Shown: piece by piece, positions 9,127 through 53,771 of the stretch | Position numbering within the stretch: the first letter of the stretch is position 1 | How the letters are laid out: each line of letters begins with the position of its first letter | Source: Paludibacteraceae bacterium | GTDB taxonomy: Bacteria; Bacteroidota; Bacteroidia; Bacteroidales; Paludibacteraceae | DNA length: 64,000 bases | Assembly (NCBI GenBank): GCA_017464025.1 | Contig: JAFUEI010000052.1 | Location: forward strand, 55,336-119,335 | Direction of reading: 5' to 3' | Notes under the pieces: generated by a model | Database searches by the model: none | Seen by the model: the letters and a program-made list of their open reading frames with translations, nothing else | Told to the model about the DNA's origin: nothing | Made by a program: the position numbers and the translations under genes

Positions 9127-12100
9127 TTAACGGACCGATGCAGCCTGCTGCACTTTCTGACCTACCACATCGTACCACTCGCCATTGCGGATGATGTAGA
9201 TGTGCTCGTCAATCAGCACTTTGTCGGCTCCGTTGCCGTTGTCGCGTACAGTGCCTATGCCGGTAGGCTCGCCTACGGTTACTACCACCGTCACTTCGCC
9301 GCACGGCAGCAGCGTTATCTTCTCTTCATAGACGCCTTCTTCCGTACCTTCCGGCAGCACCTCCGTATCGTTCAGCACGAAGGGCAGCTCGTCTGTACCT
9401 ATCTTGGCTTCTATCTCACCGTCGGCATTGGCTACATACAGGTTCAGCGTTATCGTGCTGTCGCAGCCGTATTCCGTCTGGCGAATCACGGTATAGGTGC
9501 CCTGACGGCTCATGCCCTCGAAGATACCGTCACCGTAGGTCTCGCCGTAGCAGATGGCAACCTGACGCACTTCCGTGCCCGCTGTCGCGTTATGTACGGT
9601 CAGTGTGGCTACGCTGTCGCAACCGATGGCCGTCTTCAGCGTGTCGGTATATACGCCGCCTTCCGTAATCTCTCCCCACTTGCCGAAGTTAACGCTCGTG
9701 CCCGGGCAGAGCCATACCTCGTCTTCCCCACGCAGCATCGGGTTCACTGTCAGCAGCAGCGTGGCGATACTGTCACAGCCGTTGGCGGCCGCAATGGTGT
9801 CCGAATAGCTGCCCGAAGTGTAGTACTGCTTGTTGCAGAACTCGAAGTAGGCACCCTGGCAGATTGTAGCCTCCGTCATCGATACGGCCGAAGGCACTAC
9901 CGTCAGACTCAGTACCACCGTGCTGTCGCAACCGTTTGCACCGGTCAGCTTGCGCTTGTACTCACGGCTTGCCGCAGCGGCGATGTTGAAGTTATACTGG
10001 TCATATACGCGGCCTTCGCATACCTCACCCGTCAGACGCGTTTCGGCTGCCGGCTCTACCGTCAGCGCCATCGTTACCAAACGGTCGGTTCCATCGGCCT
10101 TGTCAGCCTTCTTGAAGGCTTCATACTCCTTGGTTCCTACGCTCAGCTCGTCGGCATCAAACTGGAAGTCCTCGTTCTCGAAGTCAACATACTGGCAGAT
10201 GCTGCTGCTGTATATGTCCGTCTTGTAGCGGTTGATGCGCACGTCGCTCAAGTGCAGTTTGTTCGAACTGCCGGTCTGCGGCGACATCGTGACGAAGCAT
10301 ATCTGTATCAGCTTGCCGTTGTACGGGGTCAGTTCCACTGCGTACCGGCGGCCGCCCTTCACGTACGGTATCTCGTTATACACATACTTGCCGTCGCCCT
10401 TGTTCGACCATTTGGTCGTGTTCTCCTCTTTCCAGGTCTGTCCGCCGTCTTCACTGATCACTACGGCAAAGAAGTCCTCCTGATTGTCCGTCAGATTCGG
10501 AGCCTCATAGCCAAGCTCAGTGCCTGTCTGCTGTGCACTCAGGGCCAGGTCAAACGAGAGCAGGATGCTGTCGCTCACGCCGGCAAGGTCGATGTTGGGC
10601 GAATTCAGGAAGAAGGGAGCATAGCTGTTGTCGCCGAGGATGGCTGCTATGTCGGCCGGCATGCCGGGAGGATAAGGAGTCGAGGTGTTGGCCGTCATGG
10701 CGTTCTTGCCGCCCGCCAGCACATCGTTCTTTGTCAGCTGCCAGCTGCCCGAATAGCTGTCACCGCTCTCCGTAATCAGTTGGCCCTCATACAGAGCCTT
10801 GATGGTTGTTCCCAAGCCCGTGTCGCCGCTGCGGCGCTTCCAGCCTTCCGCATTGTAGCCCTTTGCACGGCTGAAGTCCTCGTTGTAGGCCAACTGGTAG
10901 GCCGTCGTCAGTTCCGCGGCTATCCAGTCGCTTATCTTGCTCTCCGAGCACAGGTGCCGTACACGGTAATAATACGTCTTGGCAGGCTCTAAGTTGGTCA
11001 ACTCTATCCGGCTTTCGTTCACAGTCTTGCTCACTACCGGATTGTCGAACGTGTCGTTCAGCGCCACCTCTACTTCAAAGCTCTGCACACCCGAACTCTG
11101 CCAGCTCACAGTTGCTGACGTCGAAGTCACATCCGTTGCTCTCACACCGGTGGGACTTACGCAGAAGTCGGACGGCACAATGGCAATATCGTCTATCGAC
11201 AAATAACCTGTGGCCGGTGAATTCATCGCATATACCAGCACAAGGCGTGCATCCTTTGCCGGATAGTTCTTCAGCTCGATGGTGAACTCGTCCCAATAGT
11301 TGTCCGTCCGGTCGGCCACAACCGTCGTATTGGTCACGTTTGCCGACAGGTCAACATACACCGTATCCATCGCAACAAACGTGCTGATGTCGTCGTTCGT
11401 CACGTAGCCTATGGTGATGTCGTGCGGATAGGCAGCTGTTGCGCCCGGGAATTTGCCCGATGCGTTCTCATAGTAGTGCCGTGCATAGAAGTGCAGGGCC
11501 ATCGTGTCAATGCCGAAGTCCAAAGCAGGCAGCATCGACCACAAGCCGTAAACCGTGGTGCTGCTCTGCATGTACAGCGCCCATCCTTGGGTCACGTCGT
11601 CAGGATAATTGCGCGAGTAACGGTAAGCATTCGTGTTCTGCTTCGCCTGAGGCGGATAGTTGGCGGCAATCGCGAAGCGGCTGCTACCCTTCAACACACC
11701 CGTCTTCCAGCACGATGGACGGTAGTAGCGCGTCGTACCGCTCAGATAGAACTGCTCATAGTCGCTCTCTATATCCCACGATGCGGCTTCTACGCCTACC
11801 GGCTGGCAGGGCGTGGTGAACGAAATGCTCCTCCACTCGCTGCCCGTATCGCCTGAACGCGTCTGAATGTTGAAGCTGTACTCCGTATTCGGCTGCAGAC
11901 CCGTTGCTTTGTACGATGTCTCGTTCACGGTGTCGCGCAACAGCACGTCATTGCCCAACTGCACTTCCACTATCCACTCGCTCTTGCTGCTCTTCCACGT
12001 CAGCACGGCCTCCGTAGGCTTCAGTTGCCCCTTGTCGGCACGGACATACGTCGGAGCCGGCACAGCGCCCTCGCGCTCTATCACCACATCATCTATATAC

Positions 12101-15100
12101 GCCATCGTCTTGGCATTGTCCACATTGAAGGCGATATACTTGTTCTGGGTGCCGTACAGCGATACCACCACTTCTTCCCACCAGTTGCCGTCCACAAGCG
12201 TGGTCTGCGTGTTCACGGCCACCTGATGTGTGGCTATCGGGTCAAACGTCTCCGGCTCGTAGGGCGAATCCATCGTACCTATCTTGAAGTTGCGGTCGTA
12301 TGTGGCAGCTGCGTAGGTTACGGTATATTTGGTCTCGGCTCCGCCCTTTGTGGTGGTCGTTCCATATACCATACGCGTCTTGAAGCGCAGCTGCAACGTG
12401 TCCTGGTCGGCATTCACCTTCGGCAGTACTGCATACGCGCCGCTCGCTGCCGTTCCGCCGATACGGAGCGAATAGTCGCCCGAATAGGCATAGCGGATGG
12501 TATTGGTGTTCGTGATGGTGTAAGGATTGTTCGTGTTCGACGCACCTAACGTGTTGCCTACCATCCAGCACGGCGTCATCTTGTTGCTTGAACCCTCAAA
12601 GTTGGCCACCTTCTCCGAGGCATCCTCGTCAAAGTCCCAACGGGCACCTTCTATCTCCACCAGACACAGCGTCTGCTCCATCATCGGACCTACCCATACC
12701 GACTGGCTCTCGCCACAGTCCGACTGCACCTCAAACTCGTAGGCCGTGCTCGGGGTCAGTCCCTCTATCGTTACCGTTGTGCTTGTCGCTGTCAGCGTGG
12801 TCTTCTCTTCTTTGCCGCTTTCGCGATAGCGGACGTTCCACTTCTCGCCGAAATCGTCTTTCCAGCGGATGGTGATGCTGTTCGTCGTGGCTCTAACGCC
12901 CGTCAGCATATCAGGTTTCACGCAGTCGGGCATCTTCTCTACCATGATGTTGTCGATATAGATGTAGCCTGCGGTTGCTAACTTGCCGCCGATACCGTCT
13001 ATCGAACCTAATACTAAGTGACGGCCCGTACCCGTATAGCCGGCAAACGAAAGCAGATACGACTTCCAGCTGTCGTCATCCGACCATACAACGGTATCTA
13101 ACCACGTAACTGACTGCATGAAGTCCTCATAGGGCTCCACTACGTCCGTCACACCTACTACCATCGTACGCGAACCCGTTGCATTGGCGGCTTTGTAGTT
13201 GAAACTCAACAGACCATTCAGCATCTCGTCGCTCAGCGACGGACCTATCACGTAGTTGCAGTTGTTCGTACTGCTTATCGAACCTATCTGCAAGCCCGCA
13301 CCCGATGTTCCGTATTTGGCACTTGCGTAGGCTATACCCGCCATATCGGTTGTCAACGCCACAGCCGTCGTATGCGTGTTGTAATAGCGTGTCCAGCACT
13401 CCGGTGCCTGGAAGTTGGGAGGTGTCGTGCCCGACAATTTGCAGTCGTCAAAGTTATAGCTCCACGGCAACTTCGCGGATAGCGGGCAGTCGGTCGTGAA
13501 GAAACGGCCGTTCGACCATACCGACGCCTCATCGCCGTTGATGGCGCGCACGTAGTACCAGTACTTCGTCAGCGACGTCAGCCCTCCTATCGTTATCTCG
13601 TTGGACGTTGTCGTGAACGTGCCCTTTCCGTCAGCCGTTGCAGGGTCAATAGCGGTCTCTGCTATCTTCACCTCATACTTCGTGGCTTTCAGGTCTTCCC
13701 AGCCGATGGTCACAGCCGTGTCAAGCACACCCTTTACTTCCATCTCAATAGGCTCTGCCACAGCACCCGTCTTGCTGAAACTCAGGTTCTTTATGTAGGC
13801 ATACTCTATCACGCCGCCGGCCTCGGTCAGGAACACAAGCCGGTTGCCGTAGTTGCCGTTATAGTCGCCGTCATACGTGTTGAAACGCACCGTATAGCGC
13901 AGAGCCTCATTGAAGCCGTAACCGGTGGCGGCAGTGAGGCCACTCACGTTCTCCAACGCAAACTTCTTCAGTATCACGGCTGTGGACAGGTCGTTCACGT
14001 CGCTCACAAGGCCTACCGAAATGGTCTTTGCTGCTGTGGCGTTCGTTCCGGCATGAGCGTCAAAACTGGCCTGATAGCCCGTCACATCGGTCTCGTTCTC
14101 GCCGAAGTTAATGGCCGGAGCAATGGCATATACGTTGTCCGATGCCGCTACGTGATAGATATACAAGCATTTATATGTTGACTGCCGCTGAATAGTCGAA
14201 CTTGTGCCTACCAGCCGGCCTGTCTCCCAGCAGCTCAGAGCCGTCGTGGCCGAAAAGTCTTCCGTCCCGTATTCATCGGGGGTAACGGCGTTGCAAGCGG
14301 TCTTGAAGCTCACCATCAGCGACCATTCGCCGCGCTGTGTCTCCGAGCATACGCTCCTCACGGCTGCATAGTACGTCTGGTTGACGGCCATCCGGTCGTC
14401 ATACAGCGCTATCCGGTAGTCTTCTACAATGCTGTCGATAACGATGTTCTTGTTTTGGGCAAAAGCCTGCTCTACGGTCAGGTCGTTGCCACTCAGGATA
14501 ACCACTTCATATTTGCTCACCTCAAGGTTCGACCAGCTCAGTGTCGCACCGTTGGTCTGCAGCTTCTCGGCACGCAGACGCTGCACCTTGCCGCACTCGG
14601 CTAAATACTTCACCTCCACGTTGTCCACCGTGAACACATCGGCCGTCAGCGAGCGCGTCACGGCTATGTATTTGCCGCTGCCCTCATAACCCTTGAAGTT
14701 GGTGATAATCTCCTGCCAGGCCGTGGTCAGCGCATAGGCGGCCACCGTCTTGAAGGTCGAGAGGTCCTCCGGATCCGTCATGACGCCCACATACAGCGAG
14801 TCAGCCTCGTTCTTCGTGTCGGTCTTGGCCATCAGCGTCAGCTCCAGCTCTTTCAGGTTGGAGGTCTCAAACTCCGGCAATGCAAAGTAAGGAGCTGTCT
14901 CTTTCCGGAAGAAATACAGGCCGTTGCCTTCGTAGCCCGAACTGCTTACGTAGGGCGTGAACGCGTTCGAACCGCTCTTCTCAAGCGGCATGATCCAGCA
15001 GTTGGGCACGATGCCCGCTGTCGTCCGCGTCACATAGCTTTCAAACGTCTCTTTGTAGGGCAGTGCCTCCTTTTCGCTGCAAGCGGTCTTCAGCAGCTGA

Positions 15101-17586
15101 GGCAGCGCATTCAGCGGCTCGTCACCGCACATCGAGGCTATCGTATAATAATATTCGGTATGAGGCTGCAAGCCCGTCAGCTCCAACTTGTTGGTCTCCA
15201 CTTTCTGGTCGTAGAATACACCCGTCAGCGTGTTGCCGCTTTTGCCCGTGCCTACCTTCACCTGCCACTCGCGGATGCCCGGAGCCGACCAGCTCAGCTC
15301 GGCCGTCTTGTCCGTCACCTTGCTCTCGAAGCCGTAGGCCTCCGTGCAGTTGCCCAGGGTGTCTATCTGCAGATAGTCTATATAGTACAGACCCTGCTCC
15401 GTAGTGGCCTCTGCATCCACCTGACGCATCGCTATCATGCGTCCTTTGCCCTTGTAGTTGCTCAGGCTCGTGAAGCAGCGGTCCCAGGTGGACGTGCTGG
15501 CGCCTACCTCAAAGCGGCCTAACACCTCAAACGTCGAAGCATCGTCCGGGTCGGTCATCACACCTATCTCAAGCGTCTTGCCGGCCATGCCCGCATTCCA
15601 CGGGGAGATGTAGCAGCTGATGCTTATCTTGTTGAAATCCTTCTCCGGCACCATCGGCAATACCCAGTACATATTGCTCTCCACGTTGCCTTTGTATGTC
15701 CCGTGATATACCGATATCGTGGTTGTCGTCACGCGCAGCGGACGACGCCACATCGGACGCGGCGTGTAGATGCCCACCGGCACCTCATAGTCAATATGGG
15801 CGTTCGTAAAGGCTATCACCGAGTCCGCCTTGTACTGTGGCTCCGTGTCCATCTCAAAGTCAAGCGTGTAGGGGTAGGTGCTCACAAGCTCTGGCAGACG
15901 CACGCGCAGAGGTGCCGACAGCTCGCTCTTCACGCCGCCTTTCGTACTCTGCACATATATCGTCAGGAAGCGGCCCGGAGCCTTGTCAAACTTGATGGTG
16001 TTCGTCTTCCCAGTCAGCTTCTCAAAGCGGGCGAACTCCTTCTTCGGCACCGTGTTCTTCTTGGTCACGTTCACTGCATCCGATGCAATAATCACATCCC
16101 AGCTGTCCGCATCGTGCGTCTCTGCCGTGATGTCAAACGATAACGGTGTGATGTTGCTCAGCTCAATGCCGCAGGGACGTGTCGTCGCGTCAGGACGATA
16201 TATCTTCACATCATCTATCGACAGATAGTTGTTCTCGTCAAAACGGCTCAGGAAAGCAATAAATTTGCCGTTGCCCGTATAGTTCTTCAGGTTCACCGTC
16301 AGATAGGAGAACGCGTAGGTGGCCGGTTCATACACCGTGTCCACCGGCACAAAGGTCTCTATGTTGGCCGGATCCGTCATCACACCTACGATGATGCCGC
16401 CTATGCCCTGGTTCAGGCGCCCTACATAATAGCCGCCCGTTGCCCAGAAGCTCACCTCCACACCCTGCAGCGTGGGCTCGTCTATCTCAGGCGTCGCGGC
16501 ATACACCCAGTTCTCGCCCGGTATAACGGTTGAGATACCACCAGCACGTCCGCTGAAGATAAGAGATGTCGTGTTGTCCATGCTGTAATTGCCAAGCGAA
16601 CTCGTACTCGTTCCCTGGTTGATGAACGGCAACGCCTGCATCTCCTTGTTCGTGTACAGGTCTGTCCCGCAGGTCCATCCTTTCGGTTGAGGCCATGCCG
16701 AAGCCTGATACTCAACGTTGAAATTCTCCTCGTAGGGCAGTTTCACCAAACTCGAAGTCGCAAACGCAGCCTCCGTCCAGTCGGTTATCTGCTCGCCGCA
16801 ATAGCTCCTGATGTAGGCATAATACTCCGTCCCTAACGTCAGACCTGTCACCTGCTGACGGAAGTCGTCCGATACGGCCGCAAACACCACGCCCTCTGCA
16901 TCGGCTGACACCTCGGCCAACTGCACCTGCGACACCACGATGTCAAACGAGTCCGCATCAAACGAACCCGTCCAGGTCAGCAACGCCTTCTCCTGCGACA
17001 CTTCGCTCACCGTGATATTGGCAGGCTGGTCGCATGTCGGCAGCGAACGCACGCGGATGGCATCCAATACCACACCGTAGCCCAGGTTGTCCGAGGCCTC
17101 AAACGCTATCTGGAAAAAACTGCTCGTCGTCGAAGAGAAATACACCGTATCCTCTTTCCAACGCGTAATCTTCTCCGTATATTCCTTTGCCAACTTCCAG
17201 GCATCACCTTCCTTGTCACGGTAATACACTTTCAGCGTTTCAAAGTCGCCTGTACGCTGGGCCTGTGCATGCTTGAACACCAGTATAGGCTGGAATACGC
17301 CGCGAAGGTCTATCGCCTTCGTCACCAAACGGGTGGTGAAACCGATGGTCACATCTGTCGCATTGCGCAACGCTACACGATACTGACCGTCAGCCGCACC
17401 AACGGGATTCTTCAGGTCGCCGCTCTCCACTACCCAACTCTGTTGACCGGACACATACTCCTGTGTCCAGCCCTCAGGGAGCTGACCCGACTCAAAACTC
17501 TCGTTGAGCTTGTAGTCCGTAAACTCAACGGCAAATGCTGTTGAAGCCAATATACCCAACAGCAAAAGAAGAAATTGTCTTCTCAT
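9127..17586 (-). CDS. Giant secreted adhesin-like protein with repeated adhesin-J and fibronectin III units
   Basis: 2819 residues. The signal peptide is MRRQFLLLLLGILASTAFA. About nine units follow, most consisting of a jelly-roll adhesin-like domain (starts such as LPYEENFN, LPYKETFES, LPWSYNFDD; ends like YIDDVVIER or YIDNIMVEK) and an Fn3 domain (pattern LxW...TxYYYxIRSxCGE...W). The last ~500 residues hold four repeats ending in GCDSxxxLxLxV (NGCDSTVVLSLTV, NGCDSIATLLLTV, IGCDSVATLTV, YGCDSTITLNLYV). The tail IYIIRNGEWYDVVGQKV matches the tails of two other proteins in the operon. No protease or glycosidase motif was noticed. It is probably an exported filamentous surface protein. A good Bacteroidota promoter lies about 220 bp upstream. 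Confidence 0.85.
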   Translation of the reverse strand: MRRQFLLLLLGILASTAFAVEFTDYKLNESFESGQLPEGWTQEYVSGQQSWVVESGDLKNPVGAADGQYRVALRNATDVTIGFTTRLVTKAIDLRGVFQPILVFKHAQAQRTGDFETLKVYYRDKEGDAWKLAKEYTEKITRWKEDTVYFSSTTSSFFQIAFEASDNLGYGVVLDAIRVRSLPTCDQPANITVSEVSQEKALLTWTGSFDADSFDIVVSQVQLAEVSADAEGVVFAAVSDDFRQQVTGLTLGTEYYAYIRSYCGEQITDWTEAAFATSSLVKLPYEENFNVEYQASAWPQPKGWTCGTDLYTNKEMQALPFINQGTSTSSLGNYSMDNTTSLIFSGRAGGISTVIPGENWVYAATPEIDEPTLQGVEVSFWATGGYYVGRLNQGIGGIIVGVMTDPANIETFVPVDTVYEPATYAFSYLTVNLKNYTGNGKFIAFLSRFDENNYLSIDDVKIYRPDATTRPCGIELSNITPLSFDITAETHDADSWDVIIASDAVNVTKKNTVPKKEFARFEKLTGKTNTIKFDKAPGRFLTIYVQSTKGGVKSELSAPLRVRLPELVSTYPYTLDFEMDTEPQYKADSVIAFTNAHIDYEVPVGIYTPRPMWRRPLRVTTTTISVYHGTYKGNVESNMYWVLPMVPEKDFNKISISCYISPWNAGMAGKTLEIGVMTDPDDASTFEVLGRFEVGASTSTWDRCFTSLSNYKGKGRMIAMRQVDAEATTEQGLYYIDYLQIDTLGNCTEAYGFESKVTDKTAELSWSAPGIREWQVKVGTGKSGNTLTGVFYDQKVETNKLELTGLQPHTEYYYTIASMCGDEPLNALPQLLKTACSEKEALPYKETFESYVTRTTAGIVPNCWIMPLEKSGSNAFTPYVSSSGYEGNGLYFFRKETAPYFALPEFETSNLKELELTLMAKTDTKNEADSLYVGVMTDPEDLSTFKTVAAYALTTAWQEIITNFKGYEGSGKYIAVTRSLTADVFTVDNVEVKYLAECGKVQRLRAEKLQTNGATLSWSNLEVSKYEVVILSGNDLTVEQAFAQNKNIVIDSIVEDYRIALYDDRMAVNQTYYAAVRSVCSETQRGEWSLMVSFKTACNAVTPDEYGTEDFSATTALSCWETGRLVGTSSTIQRQSTYKCLYIYHVAASDNVYAIAPAINFGENETDVTGYQASFDAHAGTNATAAKTISVGLVSDVNDLSTAVILKKFALENVSGLTAATGYGFNEALRYTVRFNTYDGDYNGNYGNRLVFLTEAGGVIEYAYIKNLSFSKTGAVAEPIEMEVKGVLDTAVTIGWEDLKATKYEVKIAETAIDPATADGKGTFTTTSNEITIGGLTSLTKYWYYVRAINGDEASVWSNGRFFTTDCPLSAKLPWSYNFDDCKLSGTTPPNFQAPECWTRYYNTHTTAVALTTDMAGIAYASAKYGTSGAGLQIGSISSTNNCNYVIGPSLSDEMLNGLLSFNYKAANATGSRTMVVGVTDVVEPYEDFMQSVTWLDTVVWSDDDSWKSYLLSFAGYTGTGRHLVLGSIDGIGGKLATAGYIYIDNIMVEKMPDCVKPDMLTGVRATTNSITIRWKDDFGEKWNVRYRESGKEEKTTLTATSTTVTIEGLTPSTAYEFEVQSDCGESQSVWVGPMMEQTLCLVEIEGARWDFDEDASEKVANFEGSSNKMTPCWMVGNTLGASNTNNPYTITNTNTIRYAYSGDYSLRIGGTAASGAYAVLPKVNADQDTLQLRFKTRMVYGTTTTKGGAETKYTVTYAAATYDRNFKIGTMDSPYEPETFDPIATHQVAVNTQTTLVDGNWWEEVVVSLYGTQNKYIAFNVDNAKTMAYIDDVVIEREGAVPAPTYVRADKGQLKPTEAVLTWKSSKSEWIVEVQLGNDVLLRDTVNETSYKATGLQPNTEYSFNIQTRSGDTGSEWRSISFTTPCQPVGVEAASWDIESDYEQFYLSGTTRYYRPSCWKTGVLKGSSRFAIAANYPPQAKQNTNAYRYSRNYPDDVTQGWALYMQSSTTVYGLWSMLPALDFGIDTMALHFYARHYYENASGKFPGATAAYPHDITIGYVTNDDISTFVAMDTVYVDLSANVTNTTVVADRTDNYWDEFTIELKNYPAKDARLVLVYAMNSPATGYLSIDDIAIVPSDFCVSPTGVRATDVTSTSATVSWQSSGVQSFEVEVALNDTFDNPVVSKTVNESRIELTNLEPAKTYYYRVRHLCSESKISDWIAAELTTAYQLAYNEDFSRAKGYNAEGWKRRSGDTGLGTTIKALYEGQLITESGDSYSGSWQLTKNDVLAGGKNAMTANTSTPYPPGMPADIAAILGDNSYAPFFLNSPNIDLAGVSDSILLSFDLALSAQQTGTELGYEAPNLTDNQEDFFAVVISEDGGQTWKEENTTKWSNKGDGKYVYNEIPYVKGGRRYAVELTPYNGKLIQICFVTMSPQTGSSNKLHLSDVRINRYKTDIYSSSICQYVDFENEDFQFDADELSVGTKEYEAFKKADKADGTDRLVTMALTVEPAAETRLTGEVCEGRVYDQYNFNIAAAASREYKRKLTGANGCDSTVVLSLTVVPSAVSMTEATICQGAYFEFCNKQYYTSGSYSDTIAAANGCDSIATLLLTVNPMLRGEDEVWLCPGTSVNFGKWGEITEGGVYTDTLKTAIGCDSVATLTVHNATAGTEVRQVAICYGETYGDGIFEGMSRQGTYTVIRQTEYGCDSTITLNLYVANADGEIEAKIGTDELPFVLNDTEVLPEGTEEGVYEEKITLLPCGEVTVVVTVGEPTGIGTVRDNGNGADKVLIDEHIYIIRNGEWYDVVGQKVQQAASVR

Positions 17587-49254: not shown

Positions 49255-50259
49255 TCAAGGATGATAGAACGACTGCTCCAAAATGAGTTGTGCATCGGGT
49301 TCGGCCATCAGTTGGCAGAGTGTAACTTCAGGATTATGGTTCATATAACTTTCAGCTATACGCCAACCTATCCACGTACCAAGACGTGCAGGAGCCTCCT
49401 GCGAAATCTCTGACGTAAAAGGTCCATCGTTAAGATAGGAGGTAAGTACAGGACTATCGGTCTTGAAAAGATCGTGCTTATCGACCATCATTCTCCACAC
49501 GGCTGCCTCATTGCGTTCAGCCCATTGCCATTGCTCCTGCGTATATCCCATCACTTCCCAAGCCGGTTCGTCTGGCAGCAGGAGTGAAAGCAGAAACATG
49601 ATTTTTCCGCGGTAAAGCATATTCTCGAGCAGACGGCTTTGCGTACTCGTATAAGGCAGATAGCGGAACAGACAAGCCGATATTACGTCGGCCGGAATAC
49701 ATTCCGGCCTCATGGTCTGCATCTGATAGCGGTGAACAACTCCGTTGTAAAGCGGATAATCACTTCCAAGATACATATCGGTACCCACAGCCACACGGTT
49801 ATCATCCCAGAAAAAGAGTGATGCATTGAAACCGGTGACAACAAAAGTAATTTCCGGTACGGGAAAGTCGGCATAAAGATATTTCATTCTGCCGAAAGCC
49901 TGCGCCAATTCATTACGAATGGGATCAATATCTGCAAACGTTCGCATCACACAATCGTTCGTCTGTCTGAAGCCGTATGTTGTATCACCCAGAAAAGCCT
50001 GCACAGCTTCACAAAGCAATGCTGTATCAGCAATGGGAATACCTATTATATCATCTGAAAAGACAGACATAAAATCGGGATACTGCACAAACAAGTGGCT
50101 TATACCCGAACAATCAGCCTCATATGAGAGTGATATAAGAGCACTGTCAAAACGCACGATAGAAGGCATCTGAGGCGTTATATCAGCCGGAAAATAACGT
50201 CTGCCGCTATGACAGCCGGCCAACAAGACAACAGACAATATGAGCAGAAAGCGTTTCAT
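49255..50259 (-). CDS. gldB: GldB-like gliding-motility-related lipoprotein
   Basis: 334 residues with lipobox LAGC. The sequence pattern (IVRFDSALI, YPDFMSVFSDDIIGIP, VPEITFVVTGFNASLFFWDDNRVAVGTDMYLGSDYPLY, ERNEAAVWRMMVDKHDLFKT, APARLGTWIGWRIAESYM) matches the GldB family. GldB is needed for gliding in Flavobacterium; in non-gliding Bacteroidales its role is unclear. Its stop touches that of the PorW-like gene, and it overlaps nadA upstream by one base, so it is cotranscribed with nadA. Confidence 0.82.
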   Translation of the reverse strand: MKRFLLILSVVLLAGCHSGRRYFPADITPQMPSIVRFDSALISLSYEADCSGISHLFVQYPDFMSVFSDDIIGIPIADTALLCEAVQAFLGDTTYGFRQTNDCVMRTFADIDPIRNELAQAFGRMKYLYADFPVPEITFVVTGFNASLFFWDDNRVAVGTDMYLGSDYPLYNGVVHRYQMQTMRPECIPADVISACLFRYLPYTSTQSRLLENMLYRGKIMFLLSLLLPDEPAWEVMGYTQEQWQWAERNEAAVWRMMVDKHDLFKTDSPVLTSYLNDGPFTSEISQEAPARLGTWIGWRIAESYMNHNPEVTLCQLMAEPDAQLILEQSFYHP

Positions 50260-51218
50260 TAACTCATCTGCAGCATACGCTGTATGGGCAACAAGGCAAG
50301 ACGCGCTGTATCTTCATCAACCATTATTTCGTTGGTTTCATCCTTCAGACAGCGGTATAGTTTTTCAAGCGTATTAAGCCGCATATATTCACACTCGTTG
50401 CAAGCACAAGGCAACGGAGTACCATTTTCAGTAAGTTCGGAAGCCTCAGGCGGAACAGGAATAAACTGTTTTTCCGGACAAGCCTGCTGCATTTTGTGCA
50501 GAATACCCGACTCCGTAGCAATAATAAATGTATTCTGCTCAGGATGATTCTTTACATATCCTAATAGAGCCTGCGTAGAACCCACTACATCGGCTAATTG
50601 GAGTAATACTTGTTTGCATTCCGGATGAGCAAGCACCTTCGCATCAGAATACTTATTTTTCAGTGATATAAGCGCCTCAACAGAGAAACGGCTATGAACA
50701 TGGCAAGCACCGTTCCACAGTTCCATCTGCCGGCCTGTGATGCTGTTGATATAGTTGCCGAGATTACGGTCGGGTCCGAACAGCAGCTTCTCGTTTTCAG
50801 GCAGTTTGTTTACAATCTTCAACGCATTTCCAGAGGTAACGACTATATCGGTAAGAGCCTTCACAGCGGCAGAAGTGTTTACATAACTTATTACTTTATA
50901 ATCAGGATGTTCTTTCTTCCATAGAGTAAGATCCTCCGCTTTGCAGGAATCAGCCAGCGAACAGCCTGCATTCATGTCGGGAACCAGCACCTTCTTGTCG
51001 GGACAAATTATTTTGGCTGTTTCTCCCATAAAATGAACACCACAGAGAACTATTACCGATGCATCGGTCTGCGCCGCCTGCCGGGCCAACGCAAGACTAT
51101 CGCCGATAAAATCGGCTATGTCCTGTATATCGGGTATTTGATAATAGTGCGCCATGATGACAGCGTTCTTTTCACGACGCAAACGGTTGATTTCGGAGAT
51201 GAGTTGTTCTTTTTCCAT
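50259..51218 (-). CDS. nadA: Quinolinate synthase NadA
   Basis: 319 residues from ATG 51218 (MEKEQLISEINRL); an earlier in-frame start at 51230 adds only four residues. NadA condenses iminoaspartate with dihydroxyacetone phosphate to form quinolinate in de novo NAD synthesis and uses a [4Fe-4S] cluster. Visible motifs are NAVIMAHYYQIPDIQDIADFIGDSLALA, VIVLCGVHFMGETAKI, DMNAGCSLADSC, VVTSGNALKIV, HPECKQVLLQLADVVGSTQAL and the C-terminal Cys segment CACNECEYMRLNTLEKL. nadB and nadC are not in the window. Confidence 0.95.
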   Translation of the reverse strand: MEKEQLISEINRLRREKNAVIMAHYYQIPDIQDIADFIGDSLALARQAAQTDASVIVLCGVHFMGETAKIICPDKKVLVPDMNAGCSLADSCKAEDLTLWKKEHPDYKVISYVNTSAAVKALTDIVVTSGNALKIVNKLPENEKLLFGPDRNLGNYINSITGRQMELWNGACHVHSRFSVEALISLKNKYSDAKVLAHPECKQVLLQLADVVGSTQALLGYVKNHPEQNTFIIATESGILHKMQQACPEKQFIPVPPEASELTENGTPLPCACNECEYMRLNTLEKLYRCLKDETNEIMVDEDTARLALLPIQRMLQMS

Positions 51219-51230
51219 AGATAGAAACAA

Positions 51231-51452
51231 TTCGGCAGATAACCGATATTTATATAATAGTTAATTTATAGAAAAATATATTGATTATATAGAGTTCATT
51301 TTGTGGATAACTTAATGAAGATGCTATTCAACAGCGTATTGCATGTGTTGATAATTATATTAAAAAGACAGGTTGCTGTGGAAGAATTTTAAGATTGCAC
51401 AATACGTAAAAAGTTATCAACATATTTAACGGAAGTTATCAACAGGAGACGT
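51231..51452. other. oriC: Candidate chromosomal replication origin oriC
   Basis: The gap between nadA and corA holds four DnaA-box sequences: TGTGGATAA (51302-51310, i.e. TTATCCACA on the minus strand), TGTTGATAA (51346-51354), TTATCAACA (51414-51422) and TTATCAACA (51436-51444), two in each orientation. Next to them 51241-51300 is 85 percent A+T (51 of 60), as expected of a DNA unwinding element. On the plus strand, hand counts give G 63/C 66 for 300 nt inside nadA but G 67/C 36 for 240 nt inside corA, although both genes are on the same strand. No ORF is seen in the gap. Confidence 0.8.
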
Positions 51453-52403
51453 TTATAGCCATTTCTTAAGTCGGAAGATGAGCAGGACGAGGAGGGTGAA
51501 AATAATCATAAGACCGATGGCAAACGGATAACCAAGGGTCCAATGAAGTTCGGGCATGAAATCGAAGTTCATGCCGTACATAGATGCAATAAGGGTAGGG
51601 GGAAGGAAGATTACGTTGACAACTGTAAATATCTTGATTATTTTGTTTTGTTCGATATTTACAAGACCGAGGAAAGTGTCTTGCAGATAGTCAAGACGGT
51701 CGAAGCCGAACCGTGTATATTCGAAGAGTGAATTAATATCCTTGATAATCATGGTCAGGCGTGGTTGGAGGTCTTTCGGGAAGAAATCGCATTTGAGGAC
51801 ATTGCTTATAACGCGCTGTTTATCCATGATGTTTTGACGGATGATAGTTACTTTTTCCTGCAGGTCCTTGATTTGAATAAGAATATCTTCATCCACGTGA
51901 TCGCTGGCATTATTGATTTCGGTAGATAGTTGTGTGATGAGGTCAGTAGTATCCTCAATCATATCGGCATCATATTCTACACGGGTTTCCATAAGGGCTA
52001 CAAAAACATGGTAGCCACTTGGAAAGTTGCGCGTATTGACGAACATCTTCTTTACGGTATCGTTGAACGTACCAAGTTCGTCGTCACGCACGGTAACGAG
52101 TACGCCGTTCTTTATAATGAAGTTGACAGGACAAGTTTCGAATGTATCTTTCAGGAAGTTGGAGTTGGCTACAATACTGTCATCAGTCTGCATATAGCGG
52201 CTTGACATCTCGATTTCCTCCATTTCTTCGTCTTCCTGGATATATATCTTGAGGAATTGCTCAAGTTCGGTTTCGACCTCTTCCTTTACATCCATGAGGT
52301 CAATCCAGATGATGTCTTTCTTCTCAATTTTCTGCAGGATATCCAGGTTTTTGGCTATTTTTACCTTTTCGCTTTCTTTATAGAATATTCTCAGTTCTGA
52401 CAT
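51453..52403 (-). CDS. corA: CorA-family magnesium/divalent cation transporter
   Basis: 316 residues. A soluble N-terminal domain rich in Glu/Asp and coiled coil is followed by two C-terminal membrane spans. The selectivity motif YGMNFDFMPEL lies between them. The C-terminus ends in the basic RLKKWL. It overlaps rsmA upstream by 13 bp and is the last gene before the oriC candidate. Confidence 0.94.
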   Translation of the reverse strand: MSELRIFYKESEKVKIAKNLDILQKIEKKDIIWIDLMDVKEEVETELEQFLKIYIQEDEEMEEIEMSSRYMQTDDSIVANSNFLKDTFETCPVNFIIKNGVLVTVRDDELGTFNDTVKKMFVNTRNFPSGYHVFVALMETRVEYDADMIEDTTDLITQLSTEINNASDHVDEDILIQIKDLQEKVTIIRQNIMDKQRVISNVLKCDFFPKDLQPRLTMIIKDINSLFEYTRFGFDRLDYLQDTFLGLVNIEQNKIIKIFTVVNVIFLPPTLIASMYGMNFDFMPELHWTLGYPFAIGLMIIFTLLVLLIFRLKKWL

Positions 52404-53179
52404 AGGTTTTGCTCTATTAAGTTTGTTAGACTTGTAAATTCCTCCACGCTTAGTTGTTCTGGCCGTTTTTTGAAGAGTTCGGTTTCTAACAGCGGATTGC
52501 CTTTTCCGAGTAGTGGCATAAGCGAATTTCGCATTTGCTTGCGGCGCTGGTTGAAGGCTGTTTTGACCACTTGGCGGAAGAGCGTTTCATTGCACGGAAG
52601 TTGTGTACGCTTGTTACGGGTAAAACGCACTACCGCCGATTTGACTTTTGGAGGAGGGTCGAAAACATGTTCGTGAACAGTGAAGAGATATTCTATATTA
52701 TACCAAGCCTGCATAAGGACAGACAATATTCCGTAGGCTTTCGATTCGGGACGTGCGGCAAGACGCTCTGCCACTTCTTTCTGAATCATGCCGGAGCAAC
52801 AGGGAATACGGTCTTTATAATCAAGTACTTTAAAGAATATCTGCGATGAGATATTATAGGGATAATTTCCAATAATGCAGAATTCACCCTGCGGATAAAG
52901 CACATTCAAATCGAGGCGGAGAAAATCACCTTGGATGAGATGCAGTTCAGGAAAATTGACAATAAGATAGTCAACCGACTCACGGTCCAACTCGACTGCT
53001 GTAAGTTCTATATGCGGATTGCGGAGCAGAAACTGTGTAAGAACACCTGTTCCCGGTCCTACTTCAAGCACCCGCATCCTATCGGATGAGAATACGAGAC
53101 TGTCGGCTATTTGTTGGGCAACACCCAGATCCCGCAGGAAGTGCTGACCCAGCGCTTTCTTGGCTCGAACTTGTTGCAT
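52391..53179 (-). CDS. rsmA: 16S rRNA dimethyladenosine transferase RsmA (KsgA)
   Basis: 262 residues from ATG 53179, the conserved N-terminus VRAKKALGQHFLRDLGVAQQI. It dimethylates the two adjacent adenosines near the 3' end of 16S rRNA. SAM-binding motifs are VLEVGPGTGVLTQFLL and VELDRESV, and the catalytic motif IIGNYPYNISSQIFF is intact. A 308-residue reading from 53317 passes over the promoter region and is rejected. It is cotranscribed with corA. Confidence 0.96.
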   Translation of the reverse strand: MQQVRAKKALGQHFLRDLGVAQQIADSLVFSSDRMRVLEVGPGTGVLTQFLLRNPHIELTAVELDRESVDYLIVNFPELHLIQGDFLRLDLNVLYPQGEFCIIGNYPYNISSQIFFKVLDYKDRIPCCSGMIQKEVAERLAARPESKAYGILSVLMQAWYNIEYLFTVHEHVFDPPPKVKSAVVRFTRNKRTQLPCNETLFRQVVKTAFNQRRKQMRNSLMPLLGKGNPLLETELFKKRPEQLSVEEFTSLTNLIEQNLCQN

Positions 53180-53219
53180 CCGCGTGATAGTCCATATATA
53201 AATAGATTGGTTTGACTTT

Positions 53220-53251
53220 TTTGCATACTTACGGAAAAAGCCGTAACTTTG
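53220..53251 (+). promoter_or_regulatory. Promoter of the GtrA/flippase-like genes
   Basis: TTTG (53220-53223), a 20-bp spacer and TAACTTTG (53244-53251). Predicted start near 53257, 26 nt before the GTG of the GtrA-like gene. It faces the rsmA promoter. Confidence 0.75.
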
Positions 53252-53257
53252 CAGCTG

Positions 53258-53289
53258 CAAAAGTAGTATAAATATTTGACTTGTGCAAA
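53258..53289 (-). promoter_or_regulatory. rsmA-corA promoter, face-to-face with the GtrA promoter
   Basis: Minus-strand TACTTTTG (53265-53258) and TTTG (53289-53286) with a 20-bp spacer. The -7 elements of this and the opposing promoter form the near-palindrome TAACTTTGCAG/CTGCAAAAGTA. The -33 element lies within the first codons of the GtrA-like gene. Confidence 0.75.
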
Positions 53290-53771
53290 CATTAGCTCGT
53301 TTTATAAGAAACATCACCGATTTTCTGTATCCGCCGTTCCGCCGTTTGTGTACACCTGAATTCTTCCGATACGGAGTATGCGGTGCCGGAAATCTGCTAC
53401 TTGGTACACTGGTTTATTTTTTGTTCTATAATTTCGTAATAGGGCATGAATTGGTGTATTTTACGCTTTTCGGACGTGAATGGTGTATTACACCCCATAT
53501 TGCCACACTATGCATTCAGTTTCCAGTGACACTGCTGACAGGATTCTGGCTGAACCGTTACGTTACGTTTACAGAGTCGTCGGTAAAAGGGCGCAAACAG
53601 TTTGTCCGCTATGTGTTTATTTTTTTATTCAATGTAGCATTCAACTATTTCGGTATAAAACTGCTGGTAGAGTTTTTTCACGTATATCCGACACCGTCGC
53701 AGATGATAATATCGGTGGCCTCCGTAGCGATATCATATTTCTATAACAAGTACTTTTCTTTTCGCAAATAG
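53283..53771 (+). CDS. GtrA-like membrane protein
   Basis: 162 residues with four membrane spans. Conserved GtrA features are FFRYGVCGAGNLLLGTLVYFLFY near the N-terminus, LTGFWLNRYVTF in the middle and SVAISYFYNKYFSFRK at the C-terminus. GtrA-like proteins are thought to move lipid-linked sugars across the inner membrane. The start is GTG at 53283, since no in-frame ATG lies nearby. The flippase-like gene follows by 10 bp. Confidence 0.88.
   Translation: MQTLARFIRNITDFLYPPFRRLCTPEFFRYGVCGAGNLLLGTLVYFLFYNFVIGHELVYFTLFGREWCITPHIATLCIQFPVTLLTGFWLNRYVTFTESSVKGRKQFVRYVFIFLFNVAFNYFGIKLLVEFFHVYPTPSQMIISVASVAISYFYNKYFSFRK

Follow-up and report, generated by a model that had tools for sequence, protein, structure and literature searches.

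The replication origin of the Escherichia coli chromosome, oriC, has gidA and mioC as its neighbours and carries a TTATCCACA box (R1) beside an AT-rich unwinding element, with further boxes beyond. In Bacteroidetes oriC is commonly located far from dnaA, as stated in the consulted part of a report that also covers chromosome I of Prevotella intermedia, in which oriC was called by Ori-Finder at the skew transition and dnaA is not near (PMC4755523). Similarly, the sections drawn on from a second report place oriC of a Flavobacteriaceae genome near mnmG, where it was located with Ori-Finder 2022 and skew (PMC12843772). As far as the excerpted description of this software goes, Ori-Finder 2022 takes skew, DnaA boxes and lineage-specific indicator genes into its score, and not dnaA alone (PMC10225481).

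Here we analysed a stretch of 64,000 nucleotides from a Paludibacteraceae bacterium (hereafter the window), which forms the final 64 kb of the 119,335-bp contig C30 in a draft genome of 2.11 Mb (71 contigs, 89 percent complete). Judging from the sequence, we consider it very probable (about 93 percent) that the gap between nadA and corA is the chromosomal oriC, at which DnaA encoded elsewhere would bind four boxes, open the AT-rich stretch on the nadA side and give rise to two forks. A preliminary description of this DNA had proposed an origin at the same place, and this gap is indicated by its clustered boxes, by its AT-rich element, by the position of the contig's skew minimum and by the recurrence of the arrangement in related species.

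Organization of the nadA-corA intergenic region

The gap is part of the gene order porW/sprE, gldB, nadA, gap, corA, rsmA, and the identities previously assigned to nadA, corA and rsmA/ksgA were upheld by NCBIfam-type profile matches above cut-off (Table 1). As annotated, the gap spans 51231-51452 (222 bp) with nadA starting at TTG 51230; the start is probably the ATG at 51218 instead, and the gap may therefore be 234 bp long. Elsewhere in the window, positions 9127-17586 on the minus strand are taken up by one open reading frame encoding 2819 aa.

Table 1. Features of the predicted origin and its neighbouring genes (window positions)
Feature	Position	Strand	Remarks
Predicted chromosomal oriC, nadA-corA intergenic gap	51219..51452	.	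Clustered boxes; AT-rich element; contig skew minimum; position conserved in relatives
AT-rich stretch, predicted DNA unwinding element	51246..51305	.	52/60 A/T; opening is a prediction
DnaA box TTATCCACA, extended AAGTTATCCACA	51302..51310	-	Adjoins AT-rich stretch; ~141 bp from corA end
DnaA box TTATCAACA	51346..51354	-	
DnaA box TTATCAACA, extended AAGTTATCAACA	51414..51422	+	
DnaA box TTATCAACA, extended AAGTTATCAACA	51436..51444	+	
nadA, quinolinate synthase	50259..51230	-	NCBIfam TIGR00550, NF006878 above cut-off; transcribed away from origin; landmark in the order
corA, Mg/Co transporter	51453..52403	-	TIGR00383 above cut-off; 3' end abuts origin
rsmA/ksgA, 16S rRNA dimethyltransferase	52391..53317	-	TIGR00755 above cut-off

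The four perfect DnaA boxes that had been described within 143 bp, on both strands, were all recovered, and three of them share the longer form AAGTTATCMACA. These four are the only TTATCMACA sites in a scan of the 64-kb window, compared with a mean of 0.78 sites in shuffled windows, of which only 1 in 100 reached four sites anywhere. Dinucleotide shuffles of the gap itself gave a mean of 0.0097 boxes and never more than two in 20,000 trials, compared with the four observed. The genome-wide scan for boxes that had been suggested in the preliminary description yielded 43 TTATCMACA sites in the draft genome and 37 for the reversed control, so that single boxes mean little and only their clustering is special. 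In this respect the gap is unique in the draft genome as a cluster of strict boxes: outside it no two sites lie less than 1.6 kb apart, and it holds the only same-strand strict pair within 30 bp. The AT-rich stretch also proved to be as described and is the most AT-rich 60-mer of the 119-kb contig, on which no 60-mer elsewhere reaches 51/60. A terminator-like stem on the minus strand (51246-51232) is too weak to use, with one found and 0.3 expected. No Rfam family reached its gathering score within 50000-53000, and neither tRNA nor tmRNA genes were found in the 64-kb window.

GC skew, base composition and the position of dnaA

The proposed check of cumulative GC skew was run on the scale of the contig and placed the minimum at contig position 106439, which corresponds to window position 51104 and lies 127 bp from the gap. 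Since the contig continues for only ~12.6 kb beyond the locus, the far arm of the curve is short. The earlier statement that the sign of the skew is independent of the coding strand stood only in part. The coding strand matters too, and minus-strand genes at 80-95 kb of the contig have a skew of +0.294. However, with genes separated by strand, four-fold sites show a rise in skew across the locus in both classes, from -0.208 to +0.035 in plus-strand genes and from -0.051 to +0.157 in minus-strand genes, as calculated with a crude ORF caller that included spurious ORFs. The GC content falls from ~0.55-0.58 to 0.41 around the origin and then stays below 0.53 to the end of the contig (window 48000-64000); in the named relatives the dip is sharper and confined to the kilobase upstream of nadA.

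In agreement with the preliminary description, dnaA is not adjacent to the gap. The sole dnaA match of the draft genome (PF00308, E 3e-57) is found on contig C60, not on C30; the predicted origin is not dnaA-linked. The dnaA open frame comprises 468 aa and contains in its C-terminal part the motif NRNHATVMHA, which we take to resemble the box-binding motif of the E. coli protein; by its sequence, the gene in this genome encodes a DnaA whose DNA-binding end looks normal. One DnaA box (G000:C60, 10035) is located ~350 bp upstream of dnaA and could serve self-regulation. Because a large distance between dnaA and oriC has been published for Bacteroidetes, in the part of the report consulted (PMC4755523), the distance observed here is unsurprising in the phylum. 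It had also been claimed that an annotation seeking dnaA would miss this origin; this claim has to be softened, as current software such as Ori-Finder 2022 goes beyond dnaA, according to the excerpted description cited above.

The nadA-corA junction within the genus

Sixty relatives from the genus were searched with the nadA-gap-corA DNA, and the outcomes were counted by hand. Both gene parts were matched in 37 of them, with nadA and corA adjacent in 22, inverted but nearby in one and on different contigs in 14, while among the remaining relatives eight matched corA only, three nadA only, one a short piece only and 11 nothing. In these draft genomes the assessment of corA orthology used DNA similarity (76-79 percent identity) and not trees. 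The comparison of the nadA-corA-rsmA junction that had been recommended earlier showed that boxes recur in the gaps of the genus and that the junction is not a fixed unit, nadA and corA lying on different contigs in 14 of 37 cases.

The sample that was read comprised 20 of the 22 adjacent and 10 of the 14 different-contig members and left out the inverted one. In the latter (G244, C13:29513-31592), nadA is inverted relative to corA and ~1.5 kb away, and this genome is a possible intermediate in the loss of the link between nadA and the origin. Box positions refer to the best 9-mer at 90-190 bp from the corA end, which in the window is the box at 51346 (97 bp) and not the one at 51302; for this test corA ends were trimmed with a wider motif, or by a fixed 30-base cut where the motif failed. 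In 18 of the 20 adjacent gaps a minus-strand box with a match of at least 8/9 is located 97-161 bp from the corA end, 13 of these boxes lying at 128-137 bp, compared with a mean of 1.6 and a maximum of 5 for a box 90-190 bp before the corA end in shuffles. A tandem second box directly beside the first is present in 12 of the 20 gaps (shuffle mean 0.7, maximum 4). Strict boxes occur in 6 of 20, and most gaps carry degenerate forms such as TTATTAACA. For the shuffle, AT and strict-box work, four of 31 sequences had no corA end motif and were kept whole, and the incomplete genome-wide box lists of G258, G279, G211 and G221 were left out of the counts. In G235 the pair on the corA side is the only one with boxes less than 100 bp apart among the matches listed (100 of 115 sites).

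Where nadA and corA lie on different contigs, the 1 kb read on each side contained strict boxes by corA in 5 of 10 genomes and by nadA in none of 10, and a box with a match of at least 8/9 was located 128-139 bp from the corA end in 8 of 10. No box was found on the corA side in G210 and G204; since the nadA side of G210 is AT-rich and carries three degenerate boxes, the origin of this genome may have stayed with nadA. The positions of the boxes suggest that in this genus it is usually corA that retains the origin and nadA that relocates.

nadA as a probable origin landmark across the Bacteroidales

Across 80 further genomes from the order, 55 boxes were counted in the final 500 bp ahead of nadA, compared with one for the reversed control, and in 100 nadA loci (80 named and 20 others, with at least two genomes counted twice, L065/L090 and L071/L123) the 500 bp upstream of nadA contained 97 boxes, compared with two for the reversed controls. 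When counted per locus, leaving out two with less than 1 kb upstream, a box was present within 1 kb upstream of nadA in 67 of 98 and a strict box was absent in 31 of 98. The loci from the order were taken in sets of 20 and 60, together 80 of the 168 genomes with a nadA match among the matches listed. The first set consisted of the 14 closest by NadA, G151 as a member of the same family, G143 and G195 for their long contigs, and G096, G029 and G182, which were chosen since boxes had been seen near nadA, so that this set is inflated and the second one is fairer. The second set (50-64 percent NadA identity) was hand-picked from roughly every second or third further match row and is not random; it contained 31 boxes in the 500 bp before nadA, compared with none for the reversed control, and had a box within 1 kb upstream of nadA in 24 of 57 loci and none strict in 33 of 57, three of the 60 being left out.

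An upward step in GC skew at nadA is present in 18 of 19 loci in the first of these sets and in 45 of 51 in the second (63 of the 70 that were measurable, with 1 of 20 and 9 of 60 left out) and, with genes of both strands, in 50 of the 59 named loci with enough flank, 21 of the 80 being left out for short flanks. The corresponding figure for ordinary gene starts in four genomes is 267 of 481. When the named loci are pooled (54 to 80 per bin), each 1-kb bin over the 10 kb upstream has a skew of -0.036 to -0.057 and nine of ten bins downstream are positive, with the switch at the nadA start, and the GC content dips to 0.384 just upstream of nadA.

On longer contigs the picture is less uniform. 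In G151, skew along a contig of 354 kb is negative in 11 of 11 20-kb bins up to 220 kb and positive in the following 7 of 7, which places a switch of sign around nadA (213,458-214,369); however, the minimum (221,685) lies 7-8 kb past nadA and the close-in skew runs the opposite way. In Bacteroides ihuae (G165), the sampled stretches have negative skew in 14 of 15 cases ahead of nadA and positive skew in 5 of 5 past it, and in the complete genome G195 the sampled skew was noisy and did not pinpoint nadA. A strict pair of boxes with a gap of at most 30 bp is present in 62 of 198 genomes of the order and lies less than 4 kb from nadA in at least six of those 62 (the window's genome included), as determined by hand comparison among the matches listed; elsewhere in the order the strict pair is a poor marker. 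Among complete genomes, the sole pair of G288 is located 4.7 kb upstream of nadA, the relaxed pairs of G258 lie ~194 kb from nadA, and G133 has its relaxed pair nearest to nadA at ~118 kb and a four-box cluster ~1.1 Mb away. The link to nadA across the order is a strong average and not an exceptionless rule.

Several further arrangements of boxes were observed in the order. G133 has a tight box-like cluster at C1:2988656-2988739 and lacks any strict box in the 1 kb preceding nadA (L279), and perhaps either the origin or nadA has moved in this genome. In G109 a pair of DnaA boxes (C12, ~49266-49294; L050) adjoins an ORF with a ParA-like start, and boxes are also found upstream of nadA on another contig (L075). 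G181 (C20 and C39) and G077 (C261 and C288) each carry two near-identical compact arrays of DnaA boxes, perhaps because the genome has two replicons, carries a duplication or was binned from more than one strain.

Discussion

We observed a cluster of boxes in an intergenic gap, an adjacent AT-rich element, a minus-to-plus switch in skew on the contig scale, a position that recurs in relatives (with G133, G258, G210 and G204 as exceptions) and, in the same genome, a dnaA gene whose product has a predicted box-binding domain. From this layout we infer that DnaA binds the gap, at which site the duplex opens, and that firing proceeds in both directions. DnaA would fill the four boxes, and its assembly, with the TTATCCACA box lying against the AT-rich stretch, would open this stretch on the nadA side, where the helicase would be loaded and two forks would depart in opposite directions. 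In this case nadA would be read along with the leftward fork, while corA and rsmA would be read against the rightward fork, toward the origin.

Alternatively, the boxes might represent a site for DnaA titration or reactivation (datA- or DARS-like) or a DnaA-controlled nadA promoter rather than an origin, which we regard as very unlikely. DnaA can regulate genes, the boxes are located just upstream of nadA in many genomes, and a promoter-like match toward nadA overlaps the region, but with four matches compared with 2.9 by chance it is nothing special. Moreover, such functions leave unexplained both the AT maximum and the coincident switch in skew, which is seen in many genomes, and where nadA and corA are on different contigs the boxes are found at the 3' end of corA, the nadA sides having strict boxes in 0 of 10 (three degenerate ones in G210). 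The retention of boxes at corA in genomes with nadA elsewhere, together with the skew switch, was the main reason to reject a promoter element of nadA or a site of DnaA titration. It is even less probable that the gap is a former or secondary origin and that the working one lies elsewhere, in the gaps of the draft. With 89 percent completeness in 71 contigs about a tenth of the genome is unseen, and some relatives have box clusters away from nadA (G133, and G109 beside the ParA-like ORF); however, the sequenced 2.11 Mb contain no other strict boxes within 1.6 kb of each other, and the boxes in the gap have remained perfect, with the skew minimum of the contig falling at the same site. Chance clustering combined with a change in coding-strand composition has a negligible probability, since the coding strand does affect skew on the contig but shuffling never produced four boxes and the pattern recurs across the order.

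With the gap read as oriC, we consider it likely that the origin and nadA have been neighbours from an early stage of Bacteroidales history, so that nadA can serve generally as an origin landmark in draft genomes, and that in this genus the link is breaking, nadA having departed in several species and the origin remaining with corA. A published link between nadA and oriC in Bacteroidales was not found in the literature searched, which covered few subscription papers. nadA may already be among the lineage-specific indicator genes of Ori-Finder 2022; its use as a comparative landmark may be new, while origins distant from dnaA are already known in the phylum. If our interpretation is true, the origin would act as a stationary point that neighbouring genes leave, and the genus would supply natural cases of a gene parting from its origin. 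Growth-rate estimates from metagenomes and studies of strand bias need the position of the origin, which dnaA often fails to mark in Bacteroidales, and nadA in combination with boxes and a step in skew could allow origins to be located in numerous draft genomes.

As far as can be told from the DNA, the origin would work in the ordinary way. The gap appears analogous to oriC of E. coli, with a TTATCCACA box adjoining the AT-rich stretch in the same orientation as R1, whereas the neighbours are nadA and corA instead of gidA and mioC. With the basal unwinding system of Bacillus subtilis, as presented in the consulted parts of two reports (PMC8287927, PMC6669920), 12 of the 20 genus relatives share tandem 9-bp boxes beside an AT-rich stretch, whereas the window's own gap is without a clear tandem second box. 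DnaA-trios, which in the basal unwinding system follow tandem boxes as at least three NAN trinucleotides, were found in 15 of 20, compared with a shuffle mean of 11 and a maximum of 17, and are not above the AT-rich background. Similar to the Flavobacteriaceae genome, going by the sections of that report drawn on, the gap would be a Bacteroidota origin named by a gene other than dnaA, which is mnmG there and nadA/corA here (PMC12843772). Likewise, the predicted oriC of Prevotella intermedia chromosome I, in the part of the report consulted, and the nadA-corA gap both have multiple DnaA boxes at a GC-skew transition, with dnaA at a distance (PMC4755523).
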